Origin: Mycobacterium sp. DL592
Lineage (GTDB): Bacteria; Actinomycetota; Actinomycetes; Mycobacteriales; Mycobacteriaceae
Direction of reading: 5' to 3'
NCBI RefSeq assembly: GCF_011694515.1
Contig: NZ_CP050192.1
Coordinates: 2,663,301 to 2,727,300, forward strand
DNA length: 64,000 bases
This document shows, piece after piece, positions 33,681 through 49,892 of this stretch; position 1 is the first letter of the stretch; every line of letters starts with the position of its first letter. The notes beneath the pieces were generated by a model, which searched no databases, was not told where the DNA came from, and was given only the letters and a program-made list of their open reading frames with translations. Made by a program: the position numbers and the translations under genes.

Positions 33681-35243
33681 ATGACTGACGCCCACACCAC
33701 CGCAGCGGACCGGACGGACAACACCGGCCGGAGCCGACGGATCGCGATCGGGGCGGGCAGCCTGGCCGTTCTGCTCGGCGCCCTCGACACCTATGTCGTG
33801 GTCACGATCATGACCGACATCATGCAGACCGTCGGCATTCCGGTGAACAAGATCCAGCAGGTCACGCCGATCATCACGGTCTACCTGCTGGGCTACATCG
33901 CCGCGATGCCACTGCTGGGCCGGCTGTCGGACCGGTTCGGCCGCAAGCTCATCCTGCAGCTCAGCCTGGCCACCTTCGCGGTCGGATCGGTGGTGACAGC
34001 TCTGTCGGGCGACCTGACGATGCTGGTCGTCGGGCGGCTCATCCAGGGTGTGGCCAGCGGCGCGCTGCTTCCCGTCACGCTGGCGCTGGCCGCCGACCTG
34101 TGGGCAGCCCGCAGCCGGGCCGCCGTCCTCGGCGGTATCGGCGCGGCCCAGGAACTGGGCAGCGTGCTCGGCCCGCTCTACGGCATCGCCGTGGTCACGG
34201 TCCTGTCGAAGTGGCAGGACGTGTTCTGGATCAACGTGCCGCTGACCGTGATCGCCATGGTGCTGATCCACTTCAGCCTGCCCTCGCACGACCGCAGCTC
34301 GAATCCGGAGCGCGTCGACGTCGTCGGCGGTGTGCTCCTGGCCATCGCACTGGGACTGGCCGTGATCGGGCTCTACAACCCGTCGCCGGACGGCAAGCAG
34401 ATTCTGCCGAGTTACGGGCTGCCGCTCGTGCTCGGCGCGGTGGTGGCGGCGATCGCGTTCGCGGTGTGGGAGCGCTTCGCCAAGACCCGGCTGATCGAGC
34501 CCGCCGGGGTTCGGTTCATCCCGTTCCTGGCGTCGCTGGGCACGTCCTTGTGCGCGGGCGCGGCCCTGATGGTGACGTTGGTCAACGTCGAGTTGTTCGG
34601 TCAGGGCGTGCTGGGCAAGGACCCGAAGGAAACCGTATTCCTGTTGGTGCACTTCCTGTTTGCGCTGCCCATCGGCGCCCTGCTGGGTGGCTGGATCGCC
34701 ACCAGGATCGGTGACCGGATCGTGGCGGCGGTCGGGATGCTGATCGCCGCGGGCGGCTACTGGCTGATCTCCAAATGGGATGTCGACGTGATGACCGCCT
34801 ACCACCACCTGGGCCCGGTATCGCTGCCGGTGCTCGGCACCGACCTCGCCGTCGCCGGTCTCGGACTGGGGCTGGTGATCGGTCCACTGACGTCGGCGGC
34901 GCTGCGGGTGGTTCCCGCCGCACAGCACGGCATCGCGTCGTCTCTGGTGGTTGTCGCCCGGATGACCGGCATGCTGATCGGCGTTGCCGCGCTGAGCGCC
35001 TGGGGCCTGTACCGGTTCAACCAGATCATGGCGACCATGCCGAAACCTACCGGCACCAACGTCCTGGAGATCGCCGCTCAGCTCGCCCAGAACGGCCGTA
35101 AGGCATTCGCGATGCAGTACGGGTCGATCTTCTCCATCACCGTGATCGTCTGCCTGGTCGGGGCCGCGCTGGCCGTCTTCATCGGCGGCAAGACGGCACA
35201 CGCCGACGCCGACGAGGACGAGGAGCTAGCCGCCCTGCGGTAG
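33681..35243 (+). CDS. P55-type MFS efflux/lipid transporter
   Basis: A 520-residue major facilitator protein of the 14-TM DHA2 group. P55 contributes to drug tolerance and, with LprG, to export of triacylglycerol-type lipids. The first helix has [14 protein letters not shown], and the cytoplasmic motif A reads [10 protein letters not shown] after GYIAAMPLL. Alternating hydrophobic segments cover the length, and the C terminus is acidic (ADADEDEEL). It is coupled to lprG upstream. Its 3' end overlaps the convergent decarboxylase-like gene by 18 bases, at the junction between backbone and the accessory island. Confidence 0.95.
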
Positions 35244-36500
35244 CGGAACATCGCGGGCCAACAGGTCAGCCCAGGTGTCCCGGCGTACCACCAAGCGGGC
35301 CTTGCCGCCGGCGATGAAGACCACCGGAATCCGGCGCGCACCGTTGTACTGGTTGGCCATCGTGTAGCAGTACGCCCCAGTGACCGGTACCGCCAGCAGG
35401 TCGCCGACAGCCGGATTATCAAGGGGCACAACGTCGATCAGTTGATCGCCCGACTCGCAGTGCCTGCCGACCACCGTGACGGGCCGGCCGCCACCGACCC
35501 GGTCGACCACCGTCGCCTCGAACCGCTGGCCGTACAGCGACACCTCGAGGTTGTCGCCCATCCCGCCGTCCACGGCGACGTGGGTACGCTCGCCGTGCTT
35601 GACGGTGGTGACGCGGTAGACGGTGCACGCCGCGGCGGCGGTCATCGAGCGGCCCGGCTCGACGATGATCCGGGCGCCGGCCGGCACCAGGCCGCGGGCC
35701 CGCTCGACCATCATCGCGGCGTACTCGCGCACCGAGGGCGGCTGGTCGTCGTAGGTGTAGCGCACCCCGAGGCCCCCGCCGAAGTCGTAGACGTCGAAAC
35801 TACCCAATTCGGCGACCGGTTCCACCGCGGCAGCCAGCTGGGTGGCGTCGAGCAGTTGCGAGCCGACGTGGGTGTGCACGCCGTCGCAGCGCAGCACTCT
35901 ACTGCGACGGATCGTCTCGATCGCGGCGCGGGCGTCGACGGGCAGCAAGCCGAACTTCGAGCCGGCGTGCCCGGTGGCCATGGCCGCGTGGGTACTGCCC
36001 TGCACACCGGGAATGACGCGCACCAGGCAGCCCTGACGCCGGCCGGCCGGCACGATGCGTTCCAGCCTGTCGATGTCGTCGAAGTTGTCGACCACCACCA
36101 ACCCGACACCGTTGGCGACCGCGAGTTCGAGTTCCTCGTCGGTTTTCGCGTTACCGTGCAACAGCATTCGGGCCGGATCGGCACCGGCGGACAGCGCGGT
36201 GACGATCTCTCCCCCGCCCGCCACATCGAGGTGCAGGCCCTCCTCGCTCATCACCCGCTGGATCGCGGTGCACGGGAACGCCTTCGACGCGAACGCGACG
36301 TCAGAGCGCGGCCACAGGCCCCGGAACGCGGCCAGATACTCCCGGGCCTTGGCCCGCAGCGCGTCCTCGTCGACGACCATGACCGGGGTGCCGAACTCGG
36401 CGGCGAGCTCGTCGAGGCGGCAGCCGCCGACCGTGATAGTCCCGTCGTCGTCGAGAGCGCTGCCGGGTGGGAACAGGCCCAGCACCTCCGGAATGCTCAT
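35226..36500 (-). CDS. Diaminopimelate decarboxylase-like PLP enzyme (LysA paralogue)
   Basis: A 424-residue fold-type III PLP decarboxylase. The PLP lysine is Lys73 in AFASKAFPC. Other motifs are [39 protein letters not shown] with the active-site Cys, and the C-terminal [13 protein letters not shown]. All match diaminopimelate decarboxylases. The true lysA of mycobacteria normally sits in the lysine/threonine region near argS and hom, so this is probably a paralogue with a catabolic or altered substrate. It is the last gene of the eleven-gene island. An AGGAG ribosome-binding site precedes the ATG. Meso-diaminopimelate, another D-centred amino acid, or a related carboxylate are possible substrates. 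Confidence 0.85.
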
Positions 36501-36520
36501 CTATCGCTCCTGGGTCGGTG

Positions 36521-37243
36521 TCACAGCATTGCAGCAGCGGCGTGGTCGGCGATCACTGTGACATCCCGATGACTCTGCAGCACCGATGCGGGCACCGCGG
36601 CGTCGACCGGCCCGAGCAGCGCGGCCACCAACGGCTGCGCCTTCGCCCGGCCCGAGGCGAGCAGGAGGATGCCGCGCGCCCGGCAGATGGTCGCCAGCCC
36701 CTGCGTGATGGCGTGGCGGGGAACCTCCTCGACCCGACCACCGAAGAAGCGCGCATTGTCCGAGCGGGTCTGCTCGGAGAGCGCCACGACGCGGGTGGTG
36801 GACGCCAGCGGCGATCCCGGCTCGTTGAAGCCCAGGTGGCCGTTGGCGCCGATACCGGCGATCTGCACGTCGACGCCGCCGACCGCGGCGATCCGGGCGT
36901 CGAATTCGGCTGCGGCGGTTGCGGGATCCGGTGAATCACCTTGCGGTACAACCACATTCTCGGCAGCGATGCCGAGTGGCTCGGCGATCCGTTCACGCAC
37001 GTAGGCCGCGTAGCTGTGCGGGTCGGCCGATCCAAGGCCGACGTACTCGTCGAGGGCGACGACGACGGCCGACGACAGGTCGATCTCACCTGCCCTGCTG
37101 CGGCGGGCGAGTTCGTCGTAGAGCCGCATCGGCGTGCCGCCGGTCGCCACTCCCAACCGCGGCGCAATCGGTGGCAGCCGCCCGAGCAGTTCGTCGGCGG
37201 CGGCAGCGGCGAACGCGTCCTCGTCGACGATGTTGACGATCAT
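36521..37243 (-). CDS. nagB: Glucosamine-6-phosphate deaminase-like protein (NagB)
   Basis: Converts glucosamine 6-phosphate to fructose 6-phosphate and ammonia. The frame is open far upstream, but the ATG at 37243 overlaps the kinase stop (ATGA) and gives 240 residues. The family motifs are present: VATGGTPMRLY, LDEYVGL (Asp65 acts in ring opening) and IAGIGANGHLGFNEPGS with the catalytic His and Glu. Length is slightly under E. coli NagB (266), as in Gram-positive forms. No nagA deacetylase gene lies in the window; the M20 hydrolase in the same operon might fill that role. True substrate specificity is not proved by the motifs. Confidence 0.87.
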   Translation of the reverse strand: MIVNIVDEDAFAAAAADELLGRLPPIAPRLGVATGGTPMRLYDELARRSRAGEIDLSSAVVVALDEYVGLGSADPHSYAAYVRERIAEPLGIAAENVVVPQGDSPDPATAAAEFDARIAAVGGVDVQIAGIGANGHLGFNEPGSPLASTTRVVALSEQTRSDNARFFGGRVEEVPRHAITQGLATICRARGILLLASGRAKAQPLVAALLGPVDAAVPASVLQSHRDVTVIADHAAAAML

Positions 37244-38652
37244 CGCCTGGCCTCGTCGTGACGGGCCAGCGCCTCGGTCCACCAGGCGTGCCGTTGCGGG
37301 CGAGGTGTGACCACCGTCGTCGTGGCGGTGCGATAGATCGGCCGGCCCAGCGCAGCGGCCGCGAACAGCGCCGCACCGAGTGCCGAATGGTCCCCGGTCA
37401 GGGGGTCCGCCCGCACTTCGCGGCCGGTCGCATCGGCGAGGTCCTGCCACATCAGCGGGCTGACCGCGCTGCCACCGCCGAGCAGGATCGGGCCGTGGCG
37501 CCCGGTGGTAGCGGCCAGAATGTCGATACAGCGCCGTAATTCGACGACGATCCCGGTGAGCAGCCCGCGCGCGATATGGCCGACGCCCATCCCGAGCCGA
37601 AGCCCGGTGAGGGTTCCGGTCAGGCTCGGGTCCCACAGTGCGCCCTGCTCGCCGGGGGCCAGGTAGGGCAGAAACAGCGGAGCCTGCTCGAGCGGAATCG
37701 ACCCCGCCGCGTCGAGTAGCGCGGCGGGACCGCTCAGCCCGAACAGCCGGGCAACCGCGTCGAACGCCGAACCTATCGCCAGCAGATCCATCTCCAGACC
37801 CCAGCCGTCCCCCGCCAGGGGCGTCACGAGGTAGCGCAGCTGCTGATCCCGGGTCGGTTCGTCCGAGATTCCCAGCACGATCGCAGAAGTACCCGCGATC
37901 ACCCCGACATCCCCGTGGTCGACCGCACCCACCCCCAGTGCGCCGAGCACCGAGTCGGCCGCACCGAGCACCACCGGCAGATCCCCGAGTCCCCATCGGT
38001 CCCGCCACCGGGCTGACAGCGGCTCGGCCGAGTCCGCCCGCGCGACATCGGGTAAGGCGGTGATACCTGCCGCCGCGGCGAGGCCGGTGTCCCACTGTCC
38101 GCGTTCGATGTCGAACACGGCGCTGCCCGCCGCGGTGCTCGGATCGGTGAGCAGCCGGCCGGTGAGTTGTTCGAACAACACATCTTTGGCGCCGGCGACC
38201 GTCACACCGGCACGGCCCAGGGCACGCAGCCGCGCGTGCATCGGGCCCAGGTAGCGCCCGTCGACCCGCTGGCCGGTGATGCGGTATAGGGCCTCGTCGC
38301 CGAACCGCTGCAGCAGGACGTCCGCCTGATCCTCGGCGCGGGCGTCCTCCCAGGTGATCGCCGGACCGGCGGGCCAGCCGTCACCGTCGAGCTCGACGAG
38401 CGTCGGCAGCATCGCACTCAGGCCGACTCCCCGCCATCGATGTGGCGCAACCTCGCGGGCGACCTGGTCCCCGGCGGCCGCCAGGGCCTGCCACCAGTCC
38501 CGTGGATCCTGTTCGGCCGCACCGGTTTCCGGCCGTGCAGTCGGGTATCCACAACGCGCCCTGGCGGCGACCACACCGTCCTCGCCGACCGCGACGACCT
38601 TGATCGCCGACGTGCCGAGGTCGACGCCCAGAACAACCGGGACGTCGCTCAC
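37240..38652 (-). CDS. FGGY-family carbohydrate kinase
   Basis: A 470-residue sugar kinase with the actin-like two-domain fold. The N-terminal phosphate-1 motif is GVDLGTSAIKVVAV; the substrate region includes ITWEDARAEDQAD. The second domain has VIAGTSAIVLGISDEP and the adenosine motif ILLGGGSAVSPLMWQDLAD. It resembles xylulokinase and gluconate kinase more than glycerol kinase, but the sugar cannot be read from sequence. ATGA overlaps with the genes on both sides show tight coupling with the aminotransferase and the NagB-like deaminase, suggesting consecutive steps. Confidence 0.87.
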   Translation of the reverse strand: MSDVPVVLGVDLGTSAIKVVAVGEDGVVAARARCGYPTARPETGAAEQDPRDWWQALAAAGDQVAREVAPHRWRGVGLSAMLPTLVELDGDGWPAGPAITWEDARAEDQADVLLQRFGDEALYRITGQRVDGRYLGPMHARLRALGRAGVTVAGAKDVLFEQLTGRLLTDPSTAAGSAVFDIERGQWDTGLAAAAGITALPDVARADSAEPLSARWRDRWGLGDLPVVLGAADSVLGALGVGAVDHGDVGVIAGTSAIVLGISDEPTRDQQLRYLVTPLAGDGWGLEMDLLAIGSAFDAVARLFGLSGPAALLDAAGSIPLEQAPLFLPYLAPGEQGALWDPSLTGTLTGLRLGMGVGHIARGLLTGIVVELRRCIDILAATTGRHGPILLGGGSAVSPLMWQDLADATGREVRADPLTGDHSALGAALFAAAALGRPIYRTATTTVVTPRPQRHAWWTEALARHDEARR

Positions 38653-40013
38653 GACCGGGAGGCGGCTGCGCGGGTCTTGGCCACCACGCTCAGCGCGTCG
38701 GCCGCCGCCTCCAGCGTCTCGTCGATGTCCTTGTCGTCGTGCACGAGCGAGACGAACAGGTTCTCGAACTGCAGCGGATGGAACAGCACGCCGCGAATCA
38801 CCATCTCTTCATACCAGCGGGTGAACAGGGGCTCGTCAGCCCGGGCCACCGCATCGCGCCAGTTGTGGATCGGCCCGTCGGCGAACCACAGCTGGAACAC
38901 CGTGCCCAGCCCTTCGCAGTACGCGTCCAGACCGCGCTCGGCCGCCAGATCGTTGAGGCCCGCGGCAAGCCGGTACCCGAGGGCCCGCTGCCGCTCGTAG
39001 AGGCCCGGCTCGGCCAACACGTCCATGGTGGCCGACACCGCCGCGCACTGCACGACGTTGGCGTTGTAGGTGCCCGAATGGGAGTAGGTGCCGTCGGCGA
39101 TCATGTGCATCGCCTCGACCGATCCGCCGACTGCGGCCACCGGGAATCCCCCGCCGAGCCCCTTGGCCAGCGTGGTGAGATCCGGCGTGACGCCGAACCA
39201 CTCCTGGGCGCCGCCGCGGGCGAACCGGAATCCGGTGATCACCTCGTCGAAGATCAACAACGCACCGTGCTTGCGGGTCTCGGAACGCAGCAGTTCCAGG
39301 TATCCGGGTTCGGGCAGGATGCAGCCGGTGTTGAACACCGCCGGCTCGGTGAGCACCGCGGCGATCTCGTCGCCGCGGCTGTCCATCAGCGCGACGAAGC
39401 TGTCCGGGTCGTTCCATGTCAGCACGACCAGGGTGTCCTCGAGTTCGGCGGGCACGCCCGGCCCCATTGCGACGGGACGCGGATGGTCGGCGGGCCCGGC
39501 CAGGACCGGGTCGACGTGATTCGACCAGTACACCGTGTCCTGCCAGCCGTGGTAGTGGCCCTCGAACCGGACAACGATGCGGCGCCCGGTGGTGGCGCGG
39601 GCCAACCGAACCGCGGTGCCCACCGCCTCCGAGCCGGAGTTGGTGAATCGCACCTGTTCGATCCCGGGCACCGTAGCGACCACCTTCTCGGCGGCCTCGA
39701 TCTCCAGCTCGTAGGGCAGCCCGAAGCAGGTGCCCAGATCGTGCACCGCCCGGCTGACGGCCTCGGTGACCACCGGGTGGCGGTGCCCCAGGATCATCGG
39801 GCCCAGCCCCAGCAGATAGTCGATATAGGTGTTGCCGTCGACATCGGTCAGGCGTGACCCGGTGCCCTCGGACATGAAGATCGGATAGGGCTTCCAGCCG
39901 TTGCGCGGAAGCCGGGCCGTCGACCCCGCCCCGCCGGGGACAGTGCGACGGGCCCGCTCATAGAGCGCTTTGGTGACGGGCGTCCGGGCCGCGTAGGCGT
40001 CGGTGAATTGCAT
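38649..40013 (-). CDS. Class III PLP aminotransferase / glutamate-1-semialdehyde aminomutase-like
   Basis: About 454 residues. Motifs are YIDYLLGLGPMILGHRHP, RFTNSGSEAVGTAVRLAR, FEGHYHGWQDTVYWS, LIFDEVITGFRFARGG and the PLP-lysine segment TTLAKGLGGGFP. The pattern is closest to HemL-type enzymes, but the operon context argues against haem synthesis and for a catabolic aminotransferase or racemase. The ATG at 40013 follows a purine-rich AAAGAGAA; an upstream ATG at 40055 would add 14 residues without a ribosome-binding site. The stop overlaps the kinase start (ATGA). Confidence 0.85.
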   Translation of the reverse strand: MQFTDAYAARTPVTKALYERARRTVPGGAGSTARLPRNGWKPYPIFMSEGTGSRLTDVDGNTYIDYLLGLGPMILGHRHPVVTEAVSRAVHDLGTCFGLPYELEIEAAEKVVATVPGIEQVRFTNSGSEAVGTAVRLARATTGRRIVVRFEGHYHGWQDTVYWSNHVDPVLAGPADHPRPVAMGPGVPAELEDTLVVLTWNDPDSFVALMDSRGDEIAAVLTEPAVFNTGCILPEPGYLELLRSETRKHGALLIFDEVITGFRFARGGAQEWFGVTPDLTTLAKGLGGGFPVAAVGGSVEAMHMIADGTYSHSGTYNANVVQCAAVSATMDVLAEPGLYERQRALGYRLAAGLNDLAAERGLDAYCEGLGTVFQLWFADGPIHNWRDAVARADEPLFTRWYEEMVIRGVLFHPLQFENLFVSLVHDDKDIDETLEAAADALSVVAKTRAAASRS

Positions 40014-40076
40014 CAGAGATTCTCTTTCACTTTCAGAAGATTGTGGGAAGGTCATGGGTCGGGTCGGCGCATCCGG

Positions 40077-41522
40077 TCATCGCGGTGCGCCCACTGCATC
40101 CGGGATGGGCTCGCCGCCGCCGGGGTCGGTGTAGAACGGCGCCCGCCCGACCTTGGCCGAGATGACCGACAGCACCAGACCTGCCAGCGCGAGACCGACG
40201 CCGAAGGCGAGTTCGATCCCGGTGAGCGAGCCCGAGGCGATCGAGTACACGACGACGAACGCCATGAACGCCGCGCCGAGGCCGGGCATCAGACCGCCGA
40301 TGGCGAAATCCTTTGCCGACGAGGTGATCTGGCGCCGGTAGCACCAGATCGCGGTGACGGCCGTGAGCAGGTAGAAGATGGCCGCCATCAGCCCGAGTGT
40401 GCTGACGATGTTCGACAGGGCCTCGCCCACCGCGCCGATGAGGGTCGAACCCCACAGAAACGCGATGTTCAGCAGACCGAACAGGATCGTCGCGTTCAAC
40501 GGTGTGCCGTACTTGGGGCTCACGGTGGCCAGCCAGCTCGGCACGACGCGATCGCGGCCCATGGCGAACCCGATTCTGGAGGCACTGACGATCGCCGCGA
40601 GCAGCGACGCCAGCGTTCCGCCGAGCACCGCGACGATCATCACGTTGGCCCAGACGCCACCGCCGATCCGTTCGCCCACGAACGCAAGGATGTTCGCCGC
40701 GTGGTCTTGCATGTCCTGCATCGGCGCGATGCCCTGGAATGCGAGCACCGACACCGAGTAGATGACGAACAGCAGGATGACACTGGTCACCGCGGCGCGG
40801 CCGGCAGTTCGGCCGCTGGACTCCTCACCGACGTATGCCGCAGTGTCCCAACCGGAATACAGGAAGATCGCCAGCAGCACACCGGAGATCAACGACTTGA
40901 AGCCGCCCGCACCCTCGATCGTGAACCACGAGACGCTCGGCTTGACCACATCACTATGGCCGTGCGCGATGAAGACCACGGCCAGCACGGCGAAGCCGAT
41001 CAGCAGCGCGTACTCGAAGATAGCCCACGCCAATTGGAATCGGGCCGACAACGCCACACCCAACGCGGCCACCGCCGTGACGATCAGGTCGAAGGCCGTG
41101 CCGACAGCGGCCACCGCGACCGTGTTGTCCGCGGCGGTGTCGGAGAAGAACGAGAGCAGGTAACTCCCGAGGGGAATGGTCAGGCTGGTCGTGCCAACTG
41201 TGTAGTACAGCAACATGATCCAGCCGGCGAAGAATCCGGCGTGCGGATTGAGCACCCGGCCCACCCACGTGTAGGTGGCACCCGCGCTGGGCTGCCACGC
41301 ATGCAGGCGCTGGTACCCCAGTGCGATGCCCAGCATCGGGACGAAACAGATGAGAATCGGCACGAAGCCGGCGTAGGCCACGGTGGCCAGGATGGCGGCC
41401 AGCGAGACGGCCACGCTCTGGATGGGCCCCGAACTGGCCAGAGCCATCACCACCACGTCGACGGCGCGCAGCGCGCCCGAGCGCAAGCCGCGACCGGCGG
41501 TGTTGTCAGCTGAAGCGGTCAT
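40077..41522 (-). CDS. APC-family amino acid permease
   Basis: A 481-residue membrane protein with about 12 hydrophobic segments and the N-terminal APC signature (LRAVDVVVMALASSGPIQSV). Later landmarks are the WDTAAYVGEESSG segment in the middle and a helix containing LSNIVSTLGLMAAIFYLL. It would import an amino acid or amine by proton symport. A GAGGAG ribosome-binding site precedes the ATG. The position between the M20 hydrolase and the aminotransferase suggests that it carries a substrate or product of the pathway. About 60 bases separate it from the aminotransferase, the largest gap in the island operon. Confidence 0.88.
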   Translation of the reverse strand: MTASADNTAGRGLRSGALRAVDVVVMALASSGPIQSVAVSLAAILATVAYAGFVPILICFVPMLGIALGYQRLHAWQPSAGATYTWVGRVLNPHAGFFAGWIMLLYYTVGTTSLTIPLGSYLLSFFSDTAADNTVAVAAVGTAFDLIVTAVAALGVALSARFQLAWAIFEYALLIGFAVLAVVFIAHGHSDVVKPSVSWFTIEGAGGFKSLISGVLLAIFLYSGWDTAAYVGEESSGRTAGRAAVTSVILLFVIYSVSVLAFQGIAPMQDMQDHAANILAFVGERIGGGVWANVMIVAVLGGTLASLLAAIVSASRIGFAMGRDRVVPSWLATVSPKYGTPLNATILFGLLNIAFLWGSTLIGAVGEALSNIVSTLGLMAAIFYLLTAVTAIWCYRRQITSSAKDFAIGGLMPGLGAAFMAFVVVYSIASGSLTGIELAFGVGLALAGLVLSVISAKVGRAPFYTDPGGGEPIPDAVGAPR

Positions 41523-41551
41523 CGACAGTCATCTCCTCGTGATATCGGTGG

Positions 41552-42736
41552 TCACTGCGCCGTCGGCACCGAGGAGCCGATGAGGGTCACCAGGGCGCGG
41601 CGCAGGATCTCGGTGGTGGCGATCAGATCCGGGATCGACACCCACTCCTCGGCCGCGTGGTAGTTGCCCCCTTCGGGCCCGAACAAGACGGTGGGGATGC
41701 CGGCGCTCTGGAACAGCGCCGCGTCGGTCCAGGCGTTCAATCCGGTGATTGGGGAGCGCACCCCGTTCACTTCCTCGGTGGCGTCGGCAAGGGCATCGAG
41801 CAGGGCACCGTTGCCTTCTCCGGTGAACGGGTCGCGGTCCAGCCGGACCTTGACCTCGCCGCGGAACTTCGGGTCGGTCTTGGCGACCTCGGTGAAGATC
41901 TCCTCGATCTCGGTGACCCGGTTGGCCAGCGTCTCCCCCGGCTGGGTGCCGATCTCGATGCCGACGACGACCTGGTTGGGGTAGGTGGCGTAGTCGGTGC
42001 CGCCCTTGATGGTTCCGGTGTGGAAGACGGTCCGCCCGTTCTTCGGGTCGGGATTGGGCTTCCACACCGTCTCGTCGAGCTTATGCAGCCTGGTCAGAAC
42101 CTCGGCCATGTGGACGATGGCGTCGACGCCCTTGTCCGGGGCCGAGCCGTGTGCGGGGACCCCGTGCACGATGATGTCGATCCATCCGAAGCCCTGGTGC
42201 TCACCGAAGATCGTCCGGGAGCCTTCCGGTTCCAGGTTGATCGCGTAGTCGATCTCGTCGGCGTGGTGGGCCACCAGGTGCTCGGTGCCGATGCTGACAC
42301 CTTCTTCGTCGATCACCAGAGCGACGAGGATGTTGCCCGCCAGTTCCGTTCCAGAGCGCACCAATTCGCGCACCGCGAGCATCGCCGCGGCACAGCCACC
42401 CTTGTCGTCGGCGGCACCGAGCCCGATCATCAGATCGCCGTCGATCACCGGGCGCAGGGCGCGGTCGGCCCAGTTCTCGTAGCCGACGGTGTCGCTGTGC
42501 GCGGACAGGCAGATGGTCGGCCCGGGCTTGCTGCCCCGCAGCCAGGCCAGCACGTTGGGCCGGCCCGGCTCGACCTCCTCGAGCGTCACCTCCAGTCCCA
42601 GTTCGGTGAACCAGTCGCGCGCGAAAGCGGCCACCTCACCCTCGCCGGCGCCGCCCGGGATGAGCCACGGCGTCACCGAGTCGATCTTCACCATGGCCTC
42701 GAGCAACTCGATCGCTTCCTCACGAGTGACGGTCAT
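41552..42736 (-). CDS. M20-family metallo-hydrolase (ArgE/DapE type)
   Basis: A 394-residue zinc-dependent amidohydrolase or peptidase. The metal ligands are visible: LSAHSDTVG, LGAADDKGG, the EE of VIDEEGVSIGTEHL, and GPEGGNYHAAEEW near the C terminus. The dimerisation domain occupies roughly residues 170-290. Relatives include N-acetylornithine and N-succinyl-diaminopimelate deacylases and dipeptidases. The ATG at 42736 has AAAGGAG upstream at good spacing and lies inside the last codons of the ABC ATPase (17-base overlap). A role in trimming or deacylating the imported substrate is inferred. Confidence 0.88.
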   Translation of the reverse strand: MTVTREEAIELLEAMVKIDSVTPWLIPGGAGEGEVAAFARDWFTELGLEVTLEEVEPGRPNVLAWLRGSKPGPTICLSAHSDTVGYENWADRALRPVIDGDLMIGLGAADDKGGCAAAMLAVRELVRSGTELAGNILVALVIDEEGVSIGTEHLVAHHADEIDYAINLEPEGSRTIFGEHQGFGWIDIIVHGVPAHGSAPDKGVDAIVHMAEVLTRLHKLDETVWKPNPDPKNGRTVFHTGTIKGGTDYATYPNQVVVGIEIGTQPGETLANRVTEIEEIFTEVAKTDPKFRGEVKVRLDRDPFTGEGNGALLDALADATEEVNGVRSPITGLNAWTDAALFQSAGIPTVLFGPEGGNYHAAEEWVSIPDLIATTEILRRALVTLIGSSVPTAQ

Positions 42737-43769
42737 CTGGTGTGTTCTCCTTTGGGGTTGGTGATACTTCGCTTTCGGAAAAATGACAGGCCACAACATG
42801 TTCCGGGGCGACCATGCGCAGCACCGGTTGCTCGGCCCGACAGCGTTCGGGTTCCCCGAGCCGGCGGCGCAGCGGGCAGCGCGGGGCGAACCGGCAACCG
42901 GGATCGGTATTGGTGACATTCGGTGGTTCGCCGGTCAGAAGTGCGCGCGAACTGCGCCGGCCGCCGCCTGCTTTGGGCATCACGTCGACCAACGCCTGGG
43001 TGTAGGGGTGCCGGGGCGTACCGATGACCTCGGCGGCGGCTCCCTGCTCCACCACCTGCCCCAGATACAGCACCGCGACACGGTCGGCGAACACACCGGC
43101 CAGCGCCAGGTCGTGGGTGATGAACAGGATTGCAATTCCCAGCTTTTCGCGCATGTCGAGGAGCAGACGAATCACTCCGGCGCGCAACGACACGTCTAGC
43201 ATCGACACCGGCTCGTCGGCCACCAGCAACCGCGGCTCGACGGCAAGGGCGGCCGCGATCGCGACGCGCTGGCGCTGACCGCCGGAGAGTTGAAAGATCC
43301 GCCGATCGGCGATGGCCTCGGGCGGGTTCAGCCCGCACTTCTCCAGAGCTGCCAGCACTGCTGTGCCCCGCGCCGCTGCACCGAGGTCCGGGCGGTGGAC
43401 GGCCAGACCTTCGCCGACGACGTCGAATGCTGTCGCATTGGGCGCCAGGCTCTCGAACGGATCCTGGAAGATCATCTGGAAGTTGTGCCGCAAGCGGCGC
43501 AGTGTTCGGCCCTTGGTGTGCGTGATGTCGGTGCCGGCGACCGAGACCGTGCCCGACGTGGCATCGACGAGCCGCATGAGGGTGCGCGCGATAGTCGTCT
43601 TCCCGCAGCCTGATTCACCCACCAGGGCGACGATCTCCCCCTCGTGGACGGTCAGATCGACGCCGTCGACGGCACGCGCGGTCAGCGTGGTGCGCCCATG
43701 GCGCACCGGGAAATGCACCCGCAGGTCGCGAAGTTCGGCGGTCACCGGCCGCGACGACATCTCGGTCAC
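42720..43769 (-). CDS. Oligopeptide/dipeptide ABC transporter ATP-binding protein (OppF/DppF type)
   Basis: A 349-residue ATPase of a peptide importer. Walker A is VGESGCGKTT, the signature LSGGQRQRVAIA, Walker B LLVADEPVSMLD, and the oligopeptide-type C-terminal Cys-containing extension follows (GCRFAPRCPLRR, likely iron-sulfur or structural). The GTG at 43769 overlaps the preceding stop (GTGA); an ATG three codons later is an alternative. It would pair with the next ATPase as a heterodimer beneath the two permeases. Confidence 0.93.
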   Translation of the reverse strand: MTEMSSRPVTAELRDLRVHFPVRHGRTTLTARAVDGVDLTVHEGEIVALVGESGCGKTTIARTLMRLVDATSGTVSVAGTDITHTKGRTLRRLRHNFQMIFQDPFESLAPNATAFDVVGEGLAVHRPDLGAAARGTAVLAALEKCGLNPPEAIADRRIFQLSGGQRQRVAIAAALAVEPRLLVADEPVSMLDVSLRAGVIRLLLDMREKLGIAILFITHDLALAGVFADRVAVLYLGQVVEQGAAAEVIGTPRHPYTQALVDVMPKAGGGRRSSRALLTGEPPNVTNTDPGCRFAPRCPLRRRLGEPERCRAEQPVLRMVAPEHVVACHFSESEVSPTPKENTPDDRHS

Positions 43770-44755
43770 CGGGTCACCCCCGCCACCGGTTGGAGCAGAT
43801 GGCATGCCGCGACATGACCCGACTCGGACACCGGGCGCAGCGCGGGATCGTCGACGACGCAGCGCGACAGAGTCTCGGTACACCTGTCGGCGAACCGGCA
43901 GCCGGCCGGCGGATGGGCGAGATTCGGAGGGCTGCCGGGGATTCCACTGATGGACGCCTGGCCGGCGTCAAGACGCGGATAGCAGTCGAGCAGGCGTCGG
44001 GTGTAGGGGTGTGCGGGCCGGGCTCCGGCGGTCAGGATGGCCTCGGCGCGTCCGTATTCGACGATGCGGCCGGCGTACATCACCGCGACCCGGTCGCACA
44101 GCTCGGCCAGGACGGTGAGGTCGTGGGAGATGATCAGCATGGCCAGTCCGAGTTCGTCGGCCAGCCCCCGGATCAGCTCCAGAATCTGTGCCTGGGTCAT
44201 GACGTCGAGCGCGGTGGTCGGCTCGTCGGCGATCACCAGATCAGGACCACAAGCCAGCGCCATCGCGATCATCGCGCGTTGCTTCATACCGCCGGAGAGC
44301 TGGTGCGGGTAATCGGCAGCCCGATTCGGCGCGATGCCGACCTGGGTGAGCAGTTCGGCGACCCGGTCGTGAACCACGCGCCGCTTGGTGCCGGGTTCGT
44401 GCGCCCGGATGGCCTCACCGACCTGGTCACCGATCGTCATGACCGGGTTGAATCCGTTCATCGCCCCCTGGAAGACCAACGCGAGACGTCGCCAGCGCAG
44501 CGACCGCAACTCCACGTCGTTCACCGCCCGCAGATCGGTACCGGCGAAACTGAGTTCATCAGCGGTCACCGTCGCGCCGTGTGGCAGCAGCTGCGCCACG
44601 GCCAGCGCGAGTGTGCTTTTACCGCAACCGGATTCACCAGCCAGACCGACCACCTCGCCGGCGCCGACATCGAGGTCGACGCCGTCGACCGCACGGACCG
44701 CCGACTCTCCGGCGCCGTAGCTGACGCTGAGGTCGCGAACCGACAGAAGCGTCAT
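43766..44755 (-). CDS. Oligopeptide/dipeptide ABC transporter ATP-binding protein (OppD/DppD type)
   Basis: A 329-residue ATPase. The open frame extends far upstream, but the ATG at 44755 overlaps the permease stop (ATGA) and gives the family N terminus [14 protein letters not shown]. Walker A is [10 protein letters not shown], the signature [12 protein letters not shown], Walker [13 protein letters not shown]. The C-terminal oligopeptide extension contains [15 protein letters not shown]. It partners the OppF-type protein encoded next. Confidence 0.93.
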
Positions 44756-45660
44756 TCGGCCACCGCCAGCCGGGGATTGAGGATGCGCTCCAGGCTCTGC
44801 CCGATCAGCGAGAACGCGAGGACCACGAGCACGATCCCGACACCGGGCGGAAGGAAGTACCACCAGTTGCCGTTTCCGACCGCGCCCGCGGCGAACGCGT
44901 TGTGCAGAATCTGGCCCCACGAGGTCCGGATGGGGTCGCCCAGCCCGAGGAACGACAACGTCGCCTCGGCGAGAATGGACCCGGCGATCACCAGGACCGC
45001 GTTGGCGATCACCAACGCCAGGACGCCGGGCAGGATCAGCCGCCACAGAATTCCCACCGACGACAGCCCCACAGTCCTGGCCCGCGCCACGACTTCCCGT
45101 TCGCGCAACGCCAAAGCCTGCGAACGCACAATGCGGGCCGTGCTGGGCCAACTGGTGATCGCGATGACCAGCACGATCATCGGCAGGCTCTGGCCGATGA
45201 TGGCGCCGAGCGCGATCATCAACGGCAGGTTGGGCAGCACCAGGAAGAAGTCGGTGACCCGCATCAGCATCGCGTCGACGAATCCGGTGAACCAGCCGGC
45301 CAGAACACCCACGAGCGTCCCGATCAGGACCGTGATGAGGGTGGCGATGAGACCGATCTCCAACGACACCGACGTTCCGGCCAGCACCTGGCGCAGCACG
45401 TCGCGGCCGAGTTCGTCGGTGCCCAGCCAGTGAAGGGCACTGGGCGGCTGCAGGATTCCGGATCGCGACCCGGCGACGTCGGTGCGGTCATACGGGGCGA
45501 GCAACGGTCCGATGATCGCCACCAACACCACAACGGCGACACTCAGCAAGCCGGTTCGGCCCATCGGGTCGGCAACCAGTTGTCGAACGACGCCGCGCCA
45601 TCCCCCGGTGACGTGGGCGGCGGCCGGCTCGGGCTCCAGGTTGGGGATCGGTCCGGTCAT
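44752..45660 (-). CDS. Peptide ABC transporter permease (OppC/DppC type)
   Basis: A 302-residue inner-membrane permease with an N-terminal helix, the periplasmic segment HWLGTDELGRDVLRQVL diagnostic of OppC/DppC, and five further helices. The cytoplasmic coupling motif is REREVVARARTVGLSSVGIL. The ATG at 45660 overlaps the stop of the other permease (ATGA); upstream in-frame residues are not family-like. Confidence 0.93.
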   Translation of the reverse strand: MTGPIPNLEPEPAAAHVTGGWRGVVRQLVADPMGRTGLLSVAVVVLVAIIGPLLAPYDRTDVAGSRSGILQPPSALHWLGTDELGRDVLRQVLAGTSVSLEIGLIATLITVLIGTLVGVLAGWFTGFVDAMLMRVTDFFLVLPNLPLMIALGAIIGQSLPMIVLVIAITSWPSTARIVRSQALALREREVVARARTVGLSSVGILWRLILPGVLALVIANAVLVIAGSILAEATLSFLGLGDPIRTSWGQILHNAFAAGAVGNGNWWYFLPPGVGIVLVVLAFSLIGQSLERILNPRLAVAE

Positions 45661-46625
45661 GTCAGCCGCACCCGCGGATCGAGGGCGCGGTACACCATGT
45701 CGCTGGCGAAGTTGGCCACCACGACCACGACGGCGAAGATCAGGAAGCAGGCCTCCATCACGGGATAGTCGCGTCTGATCACCGATAGGTAGATCAGCTG
45801 ACCCATGCCGGGCCAGGAGAACACGGTCTCGACCTGGATGGTGCCGCCCACCGTGGCGCTGGCGTACAGCGTCGTCGCGGTGACCACCGGCAGCAGTGCG
45901 TTGCGCACGCCGTGCCGCCACAGCACCCGGCGCGGGCTCAGGCCCTTGGCACGCGCGGTGGTCATGTAGTCCTCTGACAGGGTCGCCAACAGCGAACTGC
46001 GGGTGATCAGGACGAACTGTGCGATGTCGACGAGCACCATCGCCACCGTCGGCAAGATGAGATGTCGCGCCAGATCAGCGATCCGGGTGAACATCGTCGG
46101 GTAGAGCGCGTCGGCGGTGTACATCCCGGCGATGGGGAACCAGCCCAGCGTCACCGCGAAGACGAAGATCAACAACATGCCGACCCAGAATGTCGGCAGG
46201 CTCCAGAACACCAGCGACCCGATGACGAGGCTGCGGTCGGCACGCGATTCCCGCCGCGATGCGGCGAACACCCCGATCAGCACGCCGAGGATGATCACCA
46301 GCAACGTCGAGATGGTCACCAGGATCAGGGTATTGCCAAGGGCTTTCACCACGATCGGTCCGACCGACGCCTGGTAGGTGTAGGAGAAGCCGAGGTCGCC
46401 CTTGAGCAGGTTCTGCAGATAGGTGAGGAACTGCGACGCCATCGACTGGTCCAGGCCGTAGTAGCTGCGCAGTCGTGCGATGGCCTCGGCGTCCAGGTGC
46501 TGGCCGCGGGCGATGTGGGTGACCGGGTCTCCCGGCATCAGGTGGAAGAGAACGAAATTGGTCGCAACCACCGCGATGAGCGTGAACACCAGGTAGGAGA
46601 ATTTCTGGGTCAGGTACCGAAGCAT
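45657..46625 (-). CDS. Peptide ABC transporter permease (OppB/DppB type)
   Basis: A 322-residue permease. The N terminus has the family's FVLFHLMPGDPV segment after the first helix, then about five more helices. The coupling loop is EDYMTTARAKGLSPRRVLW. It follows the binding-protein gene by seven bases and overlaps the second permease, so all five importer genes form one block. Confidence 0.93.
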   Translation of the reverse strand: MLRYLTQKFSYLVFTLIAVVATNFVLFHLMPGDPVTHIARGQHLDAEAIARLRSYYGLDQSMASQFLTYLQNLLKGDLGFSYTYQASVGPIVVKALGNTLILVTISTLLVIILGVLIGVFAASRRESRADRSLVIGSLVFWSLPTFWVGMLLIFVFAVTLGWFPIAGMYTADALYPTMFTRIADLARHLILPTVAMVLVDIAQFVLITRSSLLATLSEDYMTTARAKGLSPRRVLWRHGVRNALLPVVTATTLYASATVGGTIQVETVFSWPGMGQLIYLSVIRRDYPVMEACFLIFAVVVVVANFASDMVYRALDPRVRLT

Positions 46626-46632
46626 CGACTTG

Positions 46633-48273
46633 TCAGGCCGGCTTCACGTCGAGGTAGTTCACCCGCGGGAAGTTCAGGATCATGCCACCGTTCATTGGCT
46701 GCCAACCCGTCCAGGTGTTGGTGCGCGTGCCGGTCAGCTTCTTCTGGTACCACATCACGATGTAGGGGCAGGCCGCATAGTGGATCGCCTGCATCTCCTG
46801 GACGAGCTTGACCCGGGCGGCGCGGTCGACGGTGGTCTTCTGCTGGGCGTAGAGCTCGTCGTAGCGCGGGTCGGTCCAGAAGGTGTCGTTGTTGCCGCCG
46901 ATCTGATCGGTGGTCGGGATGCCCAGCAGATAGGACGGGTCGTAGAACTCCGAGTCCCAGCCCCACACCATGATGTCCCAGTCGGGGGTTTCGGCGTTGT
47001 AGACGGTGGCGCTCATGCTGTCGGCGTCGGTGCTGGAGAGCTTCAGGTTGATTCCGACGGCCTTGGCCGCCGAGACGAACAGGTCGGCGGCCTTCATGTC
47101 GACAGTGGTGTCGGCGATCACCAGAAGCCGGAACTCCAGTGGCGCACCGTCTTTCGCCTCCCGGATGCCATCTCCGTTGCGGTCGGTGTAGCCGGCACCG
47201 TCAAGGAGTTGCTTGGCTTTGGCCGGGTTGTTGTCGAGGACGGCGTCCGGGCCCGGGACGTAGTGGAAGTCACCGAAGGTGGGGGGCAGCAGATCGGCTC
47301 CGGGTTCCCCGTAACCGGCCAGGGCGAGTTCGACGAGCTGCTGGCGGCTGACGGCACAGGACAGCGCCTGGCGCACCACCTGGTCTTTCAGGATCGGGTT
47401 GCCCTTCGAGCCGGGAGCAGTCGAACAGTTGAAGCCGATCATGTGGAACGAGAACGATTCCATCGCTGTGGTTTTCACGTCCGAGGCATTCTGCAGACCG
47501 GTGTAGATGGTGGGCGGCACTTCGGAGACGATGTCGATGTCGCCGGTGCGCAGCGCCTGGGTGACGACGTCGTCGGAGCCGAACTTCGTCCAGGTGACCT
47601 TCTCGGCGGCGGGCTTGGGTCCCCACCACGAGTCGTTCCTGGTGACCGTGGCAACGCTGCCCTTCTGCCACGACACGAAGTTGAACGGTCCGGTGCCGAC
47701 CGGCTTGTCGTTGGCGTACTTGGGCAGGTCGTCCTTGGCGACGCCTTCCCACAGGTGCTTCGGCACCATCGGCATGATGATGCCGGGCTCCAGCGTCTGC
47801 GGCTGCGCATAAGTCAGGCGGACCTGGCCGTCGCCGACCTTGGTCACGTCGGTCAGATCCTTGAAGTAGGCGCCGTAGGTGCCGTAGCTGTTGTCCCGCA
47901 CCAACAGGAAGGTGAAGATGACGTCGTCGGCACTGAAGTCCTTGCCGTCCTGCCATTTCACGCCCGAGCGCAGGGTGTAGGTGAAGGTCTTACCGTCGGG
48001 ACTGCGGTCCACGGCGGTGGCCAGTGACGGTGTGATGTTGAGCTGGGCGTCGTAGTCCATCAGTTTGTCGTAGACGAGTTGGAAGACGTCGTAGGACTGT
48101 GTCGAGGCGGCCGTGAACGGGTTGAGCGAGTCGATGTCAGTCGTGGACCCGACGCGCAGCACCGTACTGGTCGCCGTCTTCGGAGCGCATGACGCGAGTG
48201 CGGCGGCTCCGCCGAGGGCGGCGGCGACCACCGCCGATGTCCGGAAGAAGCTGCGACGATCCATCTCGGCCAT
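46633..48273 (-). CDS. ABC transporter substrate-binding lipoprotein (SBP family 5), Tat-type signal
   Basis: A 546-residue extracytoplasmic binding protein for oligopeptides or related solutes. The signal sequence combines a twin-arginine motif (RRSFFR, residues about 6-11) with a hydrophobic stretch and the lipobox LASC near residue 29. It should therefore cross folded through Tat and become a lipoprotein. Family 5 signatures include STVLRVGSTTDIDSLNPFT, the VYDKLMDYDAQL region and GVKWQDGKDFSADDVIFTF. It is the first gene of the island operon, preceded by GGGAAGGG as ribosome-binding site and by a palindromic operator. The ligand cannot be read from sequence. Confidence 0.93.
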   Translation of the reverse strand: MAEMDRRSFFRTSAVVAAALGGAAALASCAPKTATSTVLRVGSTTDIDSLNPFTAASTQSYDVFQLVYDKLMDYDAQLNITPSLATAVDRSPDGKTFTYTLRSGVKWQDGKDFSADDVIFTFLLVRDNSYGTYGAYFKDLTDVTKVGDGQVRLTYAQPQTLEPGIIMPMVPKHLWEGVAKDDLPKYANDKPVGTGPFNFVSWQKGSVATVTRNDSWWGPKPAAEKVTWTKFGSDDVVTQALRTGDIDIVSEVPPTIYTGLQNASDVKTTAMESFSFHMIGFNCSTAPGSKGNPILKDQVVRQALSCAVSRQQLVELALAGYGEPGADLLPPTFGDFHYVPGPDAVLDNNPAKAKQLLDGAGYTDRNGDGIREAKDGAPLEFRLLVIADTTVDMKAADLFVSAAKAVGINLKLSSTDADSMSATVYNAETPDWDIMVWGWDSEFYDPSYLLGIPTTDQIGGNNDTFWTDPRYDELYAQQKTTVDRAARVKLVQEMQAIHYAACPYIVMWYQKKLTGTRTNTWTGWQPMNGGMILNFPRVNYLDVKPA

Positions 48274-48299
48274 GTGAAAACCCTTCCCGACACCAGTTT

Positions 48300-48307
48300 G
48301 TATACAC
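48300..48307. promoter_or_regulatory. Candidate GntR/HutC-type operator of the island operon
   Basis: GTATACAC matches the HutC-subfamily pattern GTNTANAC and contains the perfect palindrome TGTATACA (48299-48306). It lies 26 bases upstream of the binding-protein gene. Read on the minus strand, the -10-like TACTGT (48306-48311) abuts it, so a bound repressor would sit at the transcription start. The adjacent divergent gene encodes a GntR protein with a HutC/UTRA-type effector domain. Confidence 0.6.
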
Positions 48308-48429
48308 AGTAGTATGAGTGTCGGTCATTGCCGAGCGATTGCCGGATTGTTTCCAGCTCTTTTCTCTTTCCGGCTCGGAATGAGCAGATCGCAGTGGTGT
48401 TACCAGCCACGTTCCCTGCACCGCATAGT

Positions 48430-48435
48430 TAGCAT
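48430..48435 (+). promoter_or_regulatory. Candidate -10 of the GntR regulator gene
   Basis: TAGCAT fits TANNNT and gives a leader of about 28 bases ending in the AAAGG ribosome-binding site before the ATG at 48471. It is 123 bases from the palindromic operator, so autoregulation through that site is not obvious. Confidence 0.35.
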
Positions 48436-48470
48436 TCACATGACTCCCCCGCTAGCGAAAGGCGGTGACG

Positions 48471-49310
48471 ATGGCCACCAAGCCGAAGCGCTCGGCAAGC
48501 CCCCCTGCGGCTCCGGCCGACCGCAAGCTGCGCTACCAGCACGTCTACGACCTGGTGCTGCGCATCATGGCCGAGCGCGGGCTCAAACCCGGCGACCGCC
48601 TGCCGTCCGCCGCCGAACTCGCCGAGATCGCCGCGGTCAGCAACATCAGCGTGCGCCGGGCGCTCGACGAACTGGAGCGGGCCGGAAAGATCACCCGCCG
48701 CCAGGGGCTGGGCACGTTCGTCGCCGAACCCCGCATCGCCAGTGACCCGACCCGTCCCGGCGAGCTGCTCCACACCCTGCTCGACAAGGACGGCGACCCG
48801 CCGAAGGTCATCACCTCGCTGATCTCCATCGGTGTCGGATTGCCGAGCACCGCCATCGCCACCGCACTCAGTGTCGACGCCGGGCAACCGGTCTGGGAGA
48901 TCTGGCGCAAACGCAGCCTCGGCAGCGCCGACATCATCCTCGAGCGCGCCGTCCTTCCGCTGAGCCGGGTCCCGGCGATCGACCACGAGGCACTGTCGGC
49001 AGGCGGGTCGCTGTACCGCTTCATCGAGGAGCGCTACCAGCTCACCGACGAATACACCGAGCAGGCAATCGAAGTGGACACCCCCAGTAGTTGGGAGGCC
49101 GGCCATCTCGGGGTGGGCACCGCCGATCCGATCGTGCGGGTCCGCGGCGTCAGCTTCGATGCCGATGGGAAGGCCTTCGACTGCTTCGAGCAGTGCTACC
49201 GCGCCACGAAGTTCACGTTCTACACCGCCGGCCAGACCCGGCACCGCATCCTGGGCCCCTCGGAACTGTCCAATTGGTCTGTGGCCCCGCTGTCTTCACC
49301 ACAGTGTTGA
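48471..49310 (+). CDS. GntR-family regulator with UTRA (HutC-type) domain
   Basis: A 279-residue transcription factor. The N-terminal winged helix (residues about 20-90) contains GDRLPSAAELAEIAAVSNI, VRRALDELERAGKI and RRQGLGTFVAEP, all standard for GntR. The C-terminal UTRA ligand domain shows WEIWRKRSLGSADIILERAV and the GVSFDADGKAFDCFEQCYRA strands. The ATG at 48471 has AAAGG eight bases upstream; an in-frame GTG two codons earlier is less likely. It is divergent from the eleven-gene operon and is probably its substrate-responsive repressor. Confidence 0.9.
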   Translation: MATKPKRSASPPAAPADRKLRYQHVYDLVLRIMAERGLKPGDRLPSAAELAEIAAVSNISVRRALDELERAGKITRRQGLGTFVAEPRIASDPTRPGELLHTLLDKDGDPPKVITSLISIGVGLPSTAIATALSVDAGQPVWEIWRKRSLGSADIILERAVLPLSRVPAIDHEALSAGGSLYRFIEERYQLTDEYTEQAIEVDTPSSWEAGHLGVGTADPIVRVRGVSFDADGKAFDCFEQCYRATKFTFYTAGQTRHRILGPSELSNWSVAPLSSPQC

Positions 49311-49340
49311 TCGGCCCGGCTGATGGGTATGCCTTCGCCC

Positions 49341-49892
49341 ATGAGCAACGAACTAACTGAGAAGAAGATCGCGTTCCTGGTCGCCCCCGAGGGCACCGAG
49401 CAGGTGGAACTCACAGCACCGTGGGAGGCCGTGCAGCAGGCCGGAGGCGAGGCGGAACTGGTCTCCACCGAGCTGGGCAAGATCCAGGCGTTCAACCATC
49501 TCACCCCCGCCGACACGTTCGACGCGGAGAAGGCTGCCGAGAGCGTGTCGGCCAGCGACTACGACGCCCTGGTGCTGCCCGGCGGGCTGGCCAACCCGGA
49601 CTATCTGCGCACCAACGCCGACGCGGTCGGCTTCGTCAGGAGTTTCTTCGACGCCGGCAAGCCGGTGGCGGTGATCTGCCACGGCCCCTGGACCCTGGTC
49701 GAAGCCAACGTCGTCGAGGGCCGCCAGATCACATCGTGGCCCAGCCTGCAGACCGATCTGCGCAACGCCGGCGCCCAGTGGGTCGACGAGCAGGTCGTGG
49801 TGTGCACACAAGGGCCCAACACGCTGGTGTCCAGCCGCAAGCCCGATGACCTGCCGGCCTTCTGCGCGAAGCTGGTCGAAGCCTTCTCCTGA
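49341..49892 (+). CDS. DJ-1/PfpI-family protein (type 1 glutamine amidotransferase-like)
   Basis: About 183 residues. The nucleophile elbow is AVICHGPWTLVEA with the conserved Cys; the preceding LVLPGGLANPDYLR carries the family's Gly-rich loop, and the N terminus has FLVAPEGTEQVEL. Members act as chaperones, proteases or protein/nucleotide deglycases; YhbO/PfpI-like deglycase or general stress function is likely here. The ATG at 49341 (MSNELTEKK) is preferred; an ATG at 49323 would add six residues. It is convergent with ribD, with 13 bases between their stops. Confidence 0.87.
   Translation: MSNELTEKKIAFLVAPEGTEQVELTAPWEAVQQAGGEAELVSTELGKIQAFNHLTPADTFDAEKAAESVSASDYDALVLPGGLANPDYLRTNADAVGFVRSFFDAGKPVAVICHGPWTLVEANVVEGRQITSWPSLQTDLRNAGAQWVDEQVVVCTQGPNTLVSSRKPDDLPAFCAKLVEAFS

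Follow-up and report, generated by a model that had tools for sequence, protein, structure and literature searches.

Among the described systems closest to the locus reported here are the frl operons for fructosamine breakdown, with the gene order frlBONMD-frlP and frlR in Bacillus subtilis and frlABCD and frlR in Escherichia coli. In the parts of PMC12632257 that we drew on, the B. subtilis system is described as employing an ABC importer of the type I sugar type as well as a repressor, the E. coli counterpart of this repressor being likened to NagR. For enzymes of the glutamate-1-semialdehyde aminomutase (GSAM) type, the part we used of a survey of GSA-type domains (PMC3870968) assigns an Arg to the carboxylate of the substrate and lets a Glu (395 in its numbering) pair with the amine, and a gating serine is described in the portion seen of PMC4909244. 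For diaminopimelate (DAP) decarboxylase of Thermotoga maritima, the section consulted of PMC8277567 gives Arg249 and Arg285 as ligands of the distal carboxylate and Glu315 as that of the distal amine. Here we describe an eleven-gene operon of Mycobacterium sp. DL592, analysed within a window of 64,000 nt (positions 2663301-2727300 of the 5.10-Mb single-contig genome). Judged from sequence, this operon probably serves the catabolism of an amino-sugar or ketosamine conjugate. The listings of our literature searches contained no description of a pathway with this make-up. The genes are as follows (window coordinates; PLP, pyridoxal 5'-phosphate):

48465..49310, plus strand: divergent GntR/HutC-type regulator (GntR and UTRA domains; Pfam PF00392, PF07702)
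46633..48273, minus strand: Opp-type solute-binding lipoprotein (PF00496, E 1.5e-86)
45657..46625, minus strand: Opp-type permease 1 (PF00528/PF19300)
44752..45660, minus strand: Opp-type permease 2 (PF00528/PF12911)
43766..44755, minus strand: Opp-type ATPase 1 (best NCBIfam models dipeptide/oligopeptide ATPases, below cutoff)
42720..43769, minus strand: Opp-type ATPase 2 (best NCBIfam models dipeptide/OppF ATPases, below cutoff)
41552..42736, minus strand: M20 amidohydrolase of the ArgE/DapE group (PF01546; TIGR01910 202.6 bits, cutoff 217.6)
40077..41522, minus strand: APC-family permease (PF13520)
38649..40055, minus strand: AT3, a GSAM-like class III PLP enzyme, proposed 2,1-aminomutase (PF00202)
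37240..38652, minus strand: FGGY kinase, proposed C6 kinase of an amino-ketose (PF00370/PF02782)
36521..37243, minus strand: divergent NagB-type glucosamine-6-phosphate deaminase, a second nagB of the genome (TIGR00502 220.1, below the cutoff of 236.9)
35226..36500, minus strand: LysA-like PLP decarboxylase with the distal-carboxylate Arg changed to Glu (TIGR01048 366.6, above the cutoff of 297.9)

The original prediction, made from the letters and their open reading frames, had proposed an eleven-gene set on the minus strand under a divergent GntR/HutC regulator. Open-frame calls and family scans confirm this: eleven open frames, all on the minus strand, run from 48273 down to 35226, and the gene names given then are backed by the scans (SBP_bac_5, two BPD permeases, two Opp-type ATPases, M20, AA permease, Aminotran_3, FGGY, NagB-type and LysA-type). 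With the starts chosen here 6 of the 10 junctions overlap (-4, -4, -4, -17, -4 and -4), and the others measure 7, 29, 21 and 20 bp. Mostly overlapping junctions had been claimed and are found, whereas the gaps of up to about 63 bases shrink to 29 bp at most. Moreover, the last operon gene overlaps the 3' end of the convergent p55 by 18 bp.

The gene set recurs in other genomes. Altogether 46 loci with AT3 of the same clade (AT3-A) entered the survey, L014 and L016 having been left out beforehand as contigs of L058 and L041. Removal of six near-identical copies left 40 distinct loci, 36 of which have full context (flanks of no less than 5.0 kb on one side and 4.5 kb on the other). The core of the set consists of AT3, the FGGY kinase and an amide hydrolase. 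A gene was counted as present when it gave a tblastn match within the stretch, which is not proof of a single transcript. The FGGY kinase occurs in 35/36 full-context loci (missing in L038) and in all four loci without full context (L050, L053, L057, L061). GntR is found in 34/36, being absent from L038 and from L015, whose stretch stops before that place. An amide hydrolase is present in all 36, drawn from four unrelated families: M20 (21/36) and M17 leucyl aminopeptidase (10/36) never occur together, and the five loci with neither have an S12 beta-lactamase-type protein (L047, L052, L124, L126) or a PTE-family protein (L044). S12 proteins are present in 19/36 overall. A deaminase candidate is found in 24/36, as NagB in 19 or as an SIS protein in 5 but never as both; the SIS proteins scanned (L057, L122, L123) have GlmS and NagB-II as best NCBIfam matches, all below cutoff. 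Opp permeases exceed the identity threshold in 33/36, the Opp-type genes of L155 lying below it, and CUT1-type importers occur in 2/36 (L044, L155). LysA is found in 19/36 and the APC permease in 6/36; the APC copy in L037 is only a 27% paralogue, and in the same operon the permease is missing from L013 and L015 and found in L147 and L148. A second gene order is seen in L041-L043, L045, L046, L048, L122, L151 and L152. Because the set recurs in 40 distinct loci we regard it as a real functional unit; given this conservation in other genomes, chance clustering is untenable. The gene-neighbourhood search finds the co-occurrence that the original prediction had named among its checks, and recurrence of the set supports the coherent unit of import, hydrolysis and catabolism envisaged there.

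AT3 scores 412.4 with PRK00062 (cutoff 398) and 389.3 with the hemL equivalog, below its cutoff of 527.3. Its nearest named relatives are from Mycolicibacterium and Mycobacterium, and its orthologues (at least 66%) group separately from the remaining GSAM-like proteins, in one clade (35/35 sequences, support 1.0). Residues are given by what we take to be the GSAM numbers, placed on AT3 by alignment. Arg48 and Glu431 of AT3 align with GSAM Arg32 and Glu406, and the equivalents of Ser29, Arg32, Asn217, the catalytic Lys273 and Glu406 are kept in 35/35 AT3-A sequences. In GSAM, Glu406 hinders the acceptance of alpha-carboxylates. Its position is Glu in 3/58 other GSAM-like sequences (L065, L138, L140). 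We equate Arg32 and Glu406 with the Arg and Glu 395 described in the part seen of PMC3870968. Based on the retention of both equivalents we favour AT3 as a 2,1-aminomutase that would accept a sugar phosphate as anionic tail. A plain HemL function was rejected; another gene of the genome, L140, has the HemL-like motif. A role of AT3 as PLP-dependent muramic acid etherase was dropped in view of the FGGY substrate preference and because NagB would be superfluous.

FGGY kinases prefer open-chain ketoses and polyols. The copy in the window scores 205.1 with the xylulokinase (XylB) equivalog, below the cutoff of 380.25. For the cluster NagB the nearest solved relatives are glucosamine-6-phosphate deaminases, and alignment to solved deaminases reveals the stretches LDEY and GxNGHxGFNEP, which we take to be those of the NagB active site. 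The solute-binding protein has the oligopeptide-binding AppA (1xoc) as its best solved chain by sequence, and its N-terminus (MAEMDRRSFFRTS...LASC) shows, by eye, a twin-arginine and a lipobox pattern. The cluster LysA keeps the EPGR and HCESGD motifs, while DNIR is changed to DNLE (DNME in L168). The distal-carboxylate Arg is Glu in 20/20 alignable cluster-type copies (the window and ten loci; L122, L147-L149, L151, L152, L168; L013, L015, L174), the changed residue corresponding to T. maritima Arg285 by motif order and spacing, not by structural overlay. A LysA-like protein of L166 (31%, another subfamily) was left out as its site is not alignable. The other LysA of the genome is 46% identical to the cluster paralogue and has the usual Arg. 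The cluster enzyme would, as we infer from this, decarboxylate a released amino acid other than DAP.

A link to fructosamine breakdown comes from the sister clade AT3-B, which groups with AT3-A (support of both together 0.945). Its members in L146 and L166-L169 lie near an FrlB-like SIS protein, an FrlD-like PfkB kinase, an M20 and Opp genes. The best model of the L146 SIS protein is fructoselysine-6-phosphate deglycase (153.8 bits) and that of its PfkB is fructoselysine 6-kinase (161.4), both below cutoff; these L146 proteins are the ones that were scanned, and the others match those of L146 or L063 at 43-58%. L063 has FrlB, FrlD and AT3 together with a CUT1-type importer. In the Opp-type Frl loci the M20 shares 54-60% identity with that of L057, an AT3-A locus, and the same type is found in L172; the M20 proteins of AT3-A loci thus comprise two subfamilies, L172 carrying the other one. 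In the FrlB/FrlD cluster of L168 two M20 genes flank a LysA paralogue in which the Arg is likewise replaced by Glu. AT3, an M20, LysA and Opp are thus recurring parts of a group of pathways, fructosamine-type breakdown among them. The window itself has neither an FrlB-type SIS deglycase nor an FrlD-type PfkB fructosamine 6-kinase; NagB and FGGY are found instead, and FrlB-like proteins are seen in sister-clade loci only. The Glu406 position is Gly or Asn in 6/6 Frl-type relatives and Glu in L062 and L145.

L062 and L063, both from Chloroflexota, have in common AT3, a CUT1-type importer, a glycerol-1-phosphate-dehydrogenase-like protein, an SDR and a ROK-like protein. L062 additionally has GH4-like and DegT genes. 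Possibly these clusters represent a related amino-sugar pathway.

Taken together, the operon may be a remodelled frl system dedicated to scavenging ketosamine-type (glycation-like) amino sugars that carry an acyl or aminoacyl group. The conjugate would enter through the Opp-type ABC importer, and a free small molecule through the APC permease. The M20 enzyme, representing the hydrolase found in 36/36 loci, would then cut the amide and free the primary amine of the sugar, and the FGGY kinase would phosphorylate the amino-ketose at its far end. AT3 could subsequently shift the amine from C1 to C2 and convert 1-amino-1-deoxyfructose-6-phosphate to glucosamine-6-phosphate, as suggested by its fold, Arg32 and Glu406; the reaction type is that of glutamate-1-semialdehyde and 5-aminolevulinate. 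By the chemistry of its family the NagB-type enzyme would release fructose-6-phosphate and ammonia. The LysA paralogue, in the light of its Arg-to-Glu change, might decarboxylate a released amino acid other than DAP, and GntR presumably represses the operon until the conjugate is present. Of all this, the sequences directly show the operon itself, its recurrence, the exchange of parts and the altered residues. Glucosamine-6-phosphate is placed in this pathway chiefly because NagB is exchanged for an unrelated, GlmS/NagB-II-like SIS protein. The earlier suggestion that an amino sugar phosphate enters glycolysis is probable. The specific frl-like route, with AT3 as aminomutase and glucosamine-6-phosphate and fructose-6-phosphate at its end, is proposed tentatively and at somewhat less than even confidence. 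That all three assignments hold at once is possible, though less likely than not: a GSAM-fold 2,1-aminomutase acting on 1-amino-1-deoxyfructose-6-phosphate/glucosamine-6-phosphate, a kinase of the FGGY family for the amino-ketose, and an offshoot of DAP decarboxylase without DAP recognition. The aminomutase would then connect compounds of the fructosamine type with the usual breakdown of amino sugars.

Several observations weigh against this proposal. The M20 of the Opp-type Frl loci shares only 34-39% identity with that of the window and belongs to another subfamily, which slightly lowers the confidence in both the broad assignment and the specific route. AT3-A has Leu for GSAM Trp67 and Ser for Tyr301, and the equivalent of the gating Ser163 is Pro in 30/35 and Ser in none. 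With these three residues changed and a differing gating loop, it is doubtful whether a diamine intermediate would be retained. Since 55/58 other GSAM-like sequences likewise have Arg32, this residue is not diagnostic, and the Frl-type AT3-B proteins, which are devoid of Glu406, may have a different role. Neither NagB nor SIS is found nearby in 12/36 loci. Among six genomes with such deaminase-less loci, G182, G318, G316 and G348 have SIS matches elsewhere beyond GlmS, while G358 and G374, with AT3 and FGGY, yield only GlmS-like or very weak SIS matches and no NagB or NagB-II-like one. Furthermore, the AT3-A loci stem from related, Mycobacterium-dominated genomes and are not independent events, and of the 25 genomes in the genus that carry AT3, 14 are not represented in the survey by a neighbourhood under their own handles. 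Finally, we know of no natural 1-amino-1-deoxyfructose amide that is common in soil or water.

The sister loci also allow a different view, namely the use of Amadori products with swapped parts; the original prediction had already named Amadori compounds as possible test substrates. Peptidases would trim glycated peptides, FGGY would be the fructosamine 6-kinase and NagB or SIS the deglycase, and AT3 and LysA would have as substrate not the sugar but the amine or amino acid (e.g. of lysine type) that is released. The FrlB- and FrlD-like genes beside AT3-B, M20 and Opp in L146 and L166-L169 are consistent with this, and the position of the L168 LysA between two M20 genes fits work on the amine part. 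However, AT3 is paired with FGGY in 35/36 loci whereas LysA is optional (19/36), and Glu406 tracks the sugar enzymes, being kept with FGGY and lost with FrlD/FrlB. Moreover, NagB has no known activity on N-substituted ketosamines. We consider this form of Amadori-product use rather unlikely. Another amino sugar, such as mannosamine, an aminocyclitol or the sugar of a peptidyl antibiotic, would leave AT3 to correct the position of the amine for NagB/FrlB-type enzymes. The CUT1-type importers of L044 and L155, the PTE-family protein of L044 and the DegT, GH4-like, ROK-like and dehydrogenase-like genes located close to AT3 and M20 in L062 point in this direction, but no epimerase or glycosidase is found among the recurrent AT3-A neighbours, of which the unlabelled ones are annotated in part. 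Such a substrate is unlikely.

Muropeptide use with decarboxylation of DAP to lysine, which the original prediction had put forward, finds some backing in the Opp importer, the peptidases, the glucosamine-6-phosphate-deaminase-type protein and a LysA that passes the DAP decarboxylase cutoff. Against it, the equivalent of T. maritima Arg285 is Glu in all alignable cluster-type LysA copies, so that the DAP step is not supported, MurQ has no match over cutoff in the genome (the sole one, 27.9 bits, is in a GlmS-like frame), and neither a NagA-type deacetylase nor an etherase is present in the cluster. The missing MurQ makes muropeptide use unlikely and, together with the LysA change, weakens its combination with a DAP-to-lysine step. 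FGGY kinases have no known activity on muramic acid. Altogether, recycling of muropeptides or peptidoglycan with conversion of DAP to lysine is very improbable. A separate nagA-nagB-PTS (phosphotransferase system) locus with a canonical nagB is located elsewhere in the genome (PTS IIBC 520.6, cutoff 553.2). The cluster NagB would hence be redundant for N-acetylglucosamine, and plain use of this sugar was rejected. Two or three unrelated units, i.e. a peptide importer, amino acid enzymes and sugar enzymes that merely lie side by side, are scarcely credible for a set that is found, rearranged and with part swaps, in 40 distinct loci and in the second gene order described above.

The cluster lies between p55 and ribD, in line with the placement first suggested. 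Of 12 relatives taken to lack the cluster, 9 have the two genes side by side, with match ends separated by 24 to about 510 bp; absence of an AT3 match is shown for 9 of all 12, the listings being silent for G026, G031 and G034. At the three sites without this adjacency, L178 has a gap of 1.3 kb, L175 a DJ-1 gene and L174 a remnant with LysA and DJ-1. The operon is also found between p55 and ribD in L013, L036, L147, L148 and L149, and at another site in L039, L040 and L059. AT3 matches with E <= 1e-125 occur in 25/297 genomes of the genus. The unit is thus patchy, compatible with insertion or loss. GC content is 0.677 in the cluster versus 0.683 in the remaining window and hence does not point to recent transfer.

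In L174 (G004), DJ-1 and the LysA paralogue, again with Glu at the changed site, lie beside p55 in a genome without an AT3 match (E <= 1e-100 or 1e-125), which looks like a remnant of the cluster. L039, L040, L056 and L059 have the same operon type in a different, largely common neighbourhood; the operon has hence moved or been transferred. In L015 (G009), with an otherwise similar cluster, AT3, NagB and one permease each match as two separate pieces, owing to sequencing error or decay. Elsewhere in the window, an open frame of 1934 residues at 25751-31555 on the minus strand has bacterial Ig domains and cadherin-like ones.

As in frl-type systems, a GntR/UTRA (HutC-type) regulator accompanies a dedicated importer, here Opp-type. 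The gap between gntR and the solute-binding protein gene contains one further feature:

48296..48309, no strand: operator-like palindrome, 12/14 positions of CTSTGTATACASAG, best match of the window

Ten further loci of the same type (L036, L013, L014, L147, L148, L149, L039, L040, L056 and L059, with L056 a near-duplicate of L040) likewise have their highest-scoring match, with 12-14 of 14 positions, between gntR and the solute-binding protein gene; the consensus was read from the loci on which it was scored and is partly circular. No palindrome is seen upstream of the solute-binding protein gene in L037, where another gene separates it from gntR. In 14 loci of other arrangements the best scores are 10-13 of 14, the sole 13 (L122) lying just upstream of AT3. 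At 49323-49892, 12 bp downstream of gntR, a DJ-1/PfpI family gene scores above the TIGR01382 cutoff. Among the loci given it is found only in L013, L147, L148, L174 and L175, the last two without the full cluster, and was dropped as a core part. The family name deglycase/protease may suit the glycation theme, possibly by coincidence.

If the proposed pathway is correct, it would be a route undescribed, as far as the literature search tells, by which actinobacteria use glycation-type or aminoacylated amino sugars; several AT3-bearing actinobacteria are from lake or peat metagenomes. GSAM-like enzymes would gain a new amino-sugar reaction, and the names hemL, lysA, nagB and xylB would be misnomers in such operons. 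Even with a wrong substrate guess, the hydrolase, kinase, PLP enzyme and deaminase remain a conserved module.

Compared with known systems, the cluster resembles the frl operons (in the portion of PMC12632257 used here) by its dedicated importer, a kinase, a sugar-amine cleaving enzyme and a specific repressor, and the loci of the AT3 sister clade have FrlB- and FrlD-like proteins. It differs by FGGY in place of the PfkB-type FrlD, by NagB or a NagB-II-like SIS protein in place of FrlB and by an Opp importer in most loci in place of a type I sugar importer or APC, and it adds the GSAM-like AT3, an amide hydrolase and the LysA paralogue. With the nag pathway it shares a protein of the glucosamine-6-phosphate deaminase type, but not NagA, and the canonical nag locus is separate. 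The cluster LysA passes the family cutoff of DAP decarboxylase and keeps its EPGR and HCESGD motifs, yet it is a paralogue of the other LysA with Glu for the distal-carboxylate Arg. AT3, finally, has GSAM/HemL as its closest solved structures and shares the catalytic Lys, Arg32 and Glu406 equivalents with them, whereas it scores under the hemL cutoff, is changed at Trp67, Ser163 and Tyr301 and is placed in a sugar operon.

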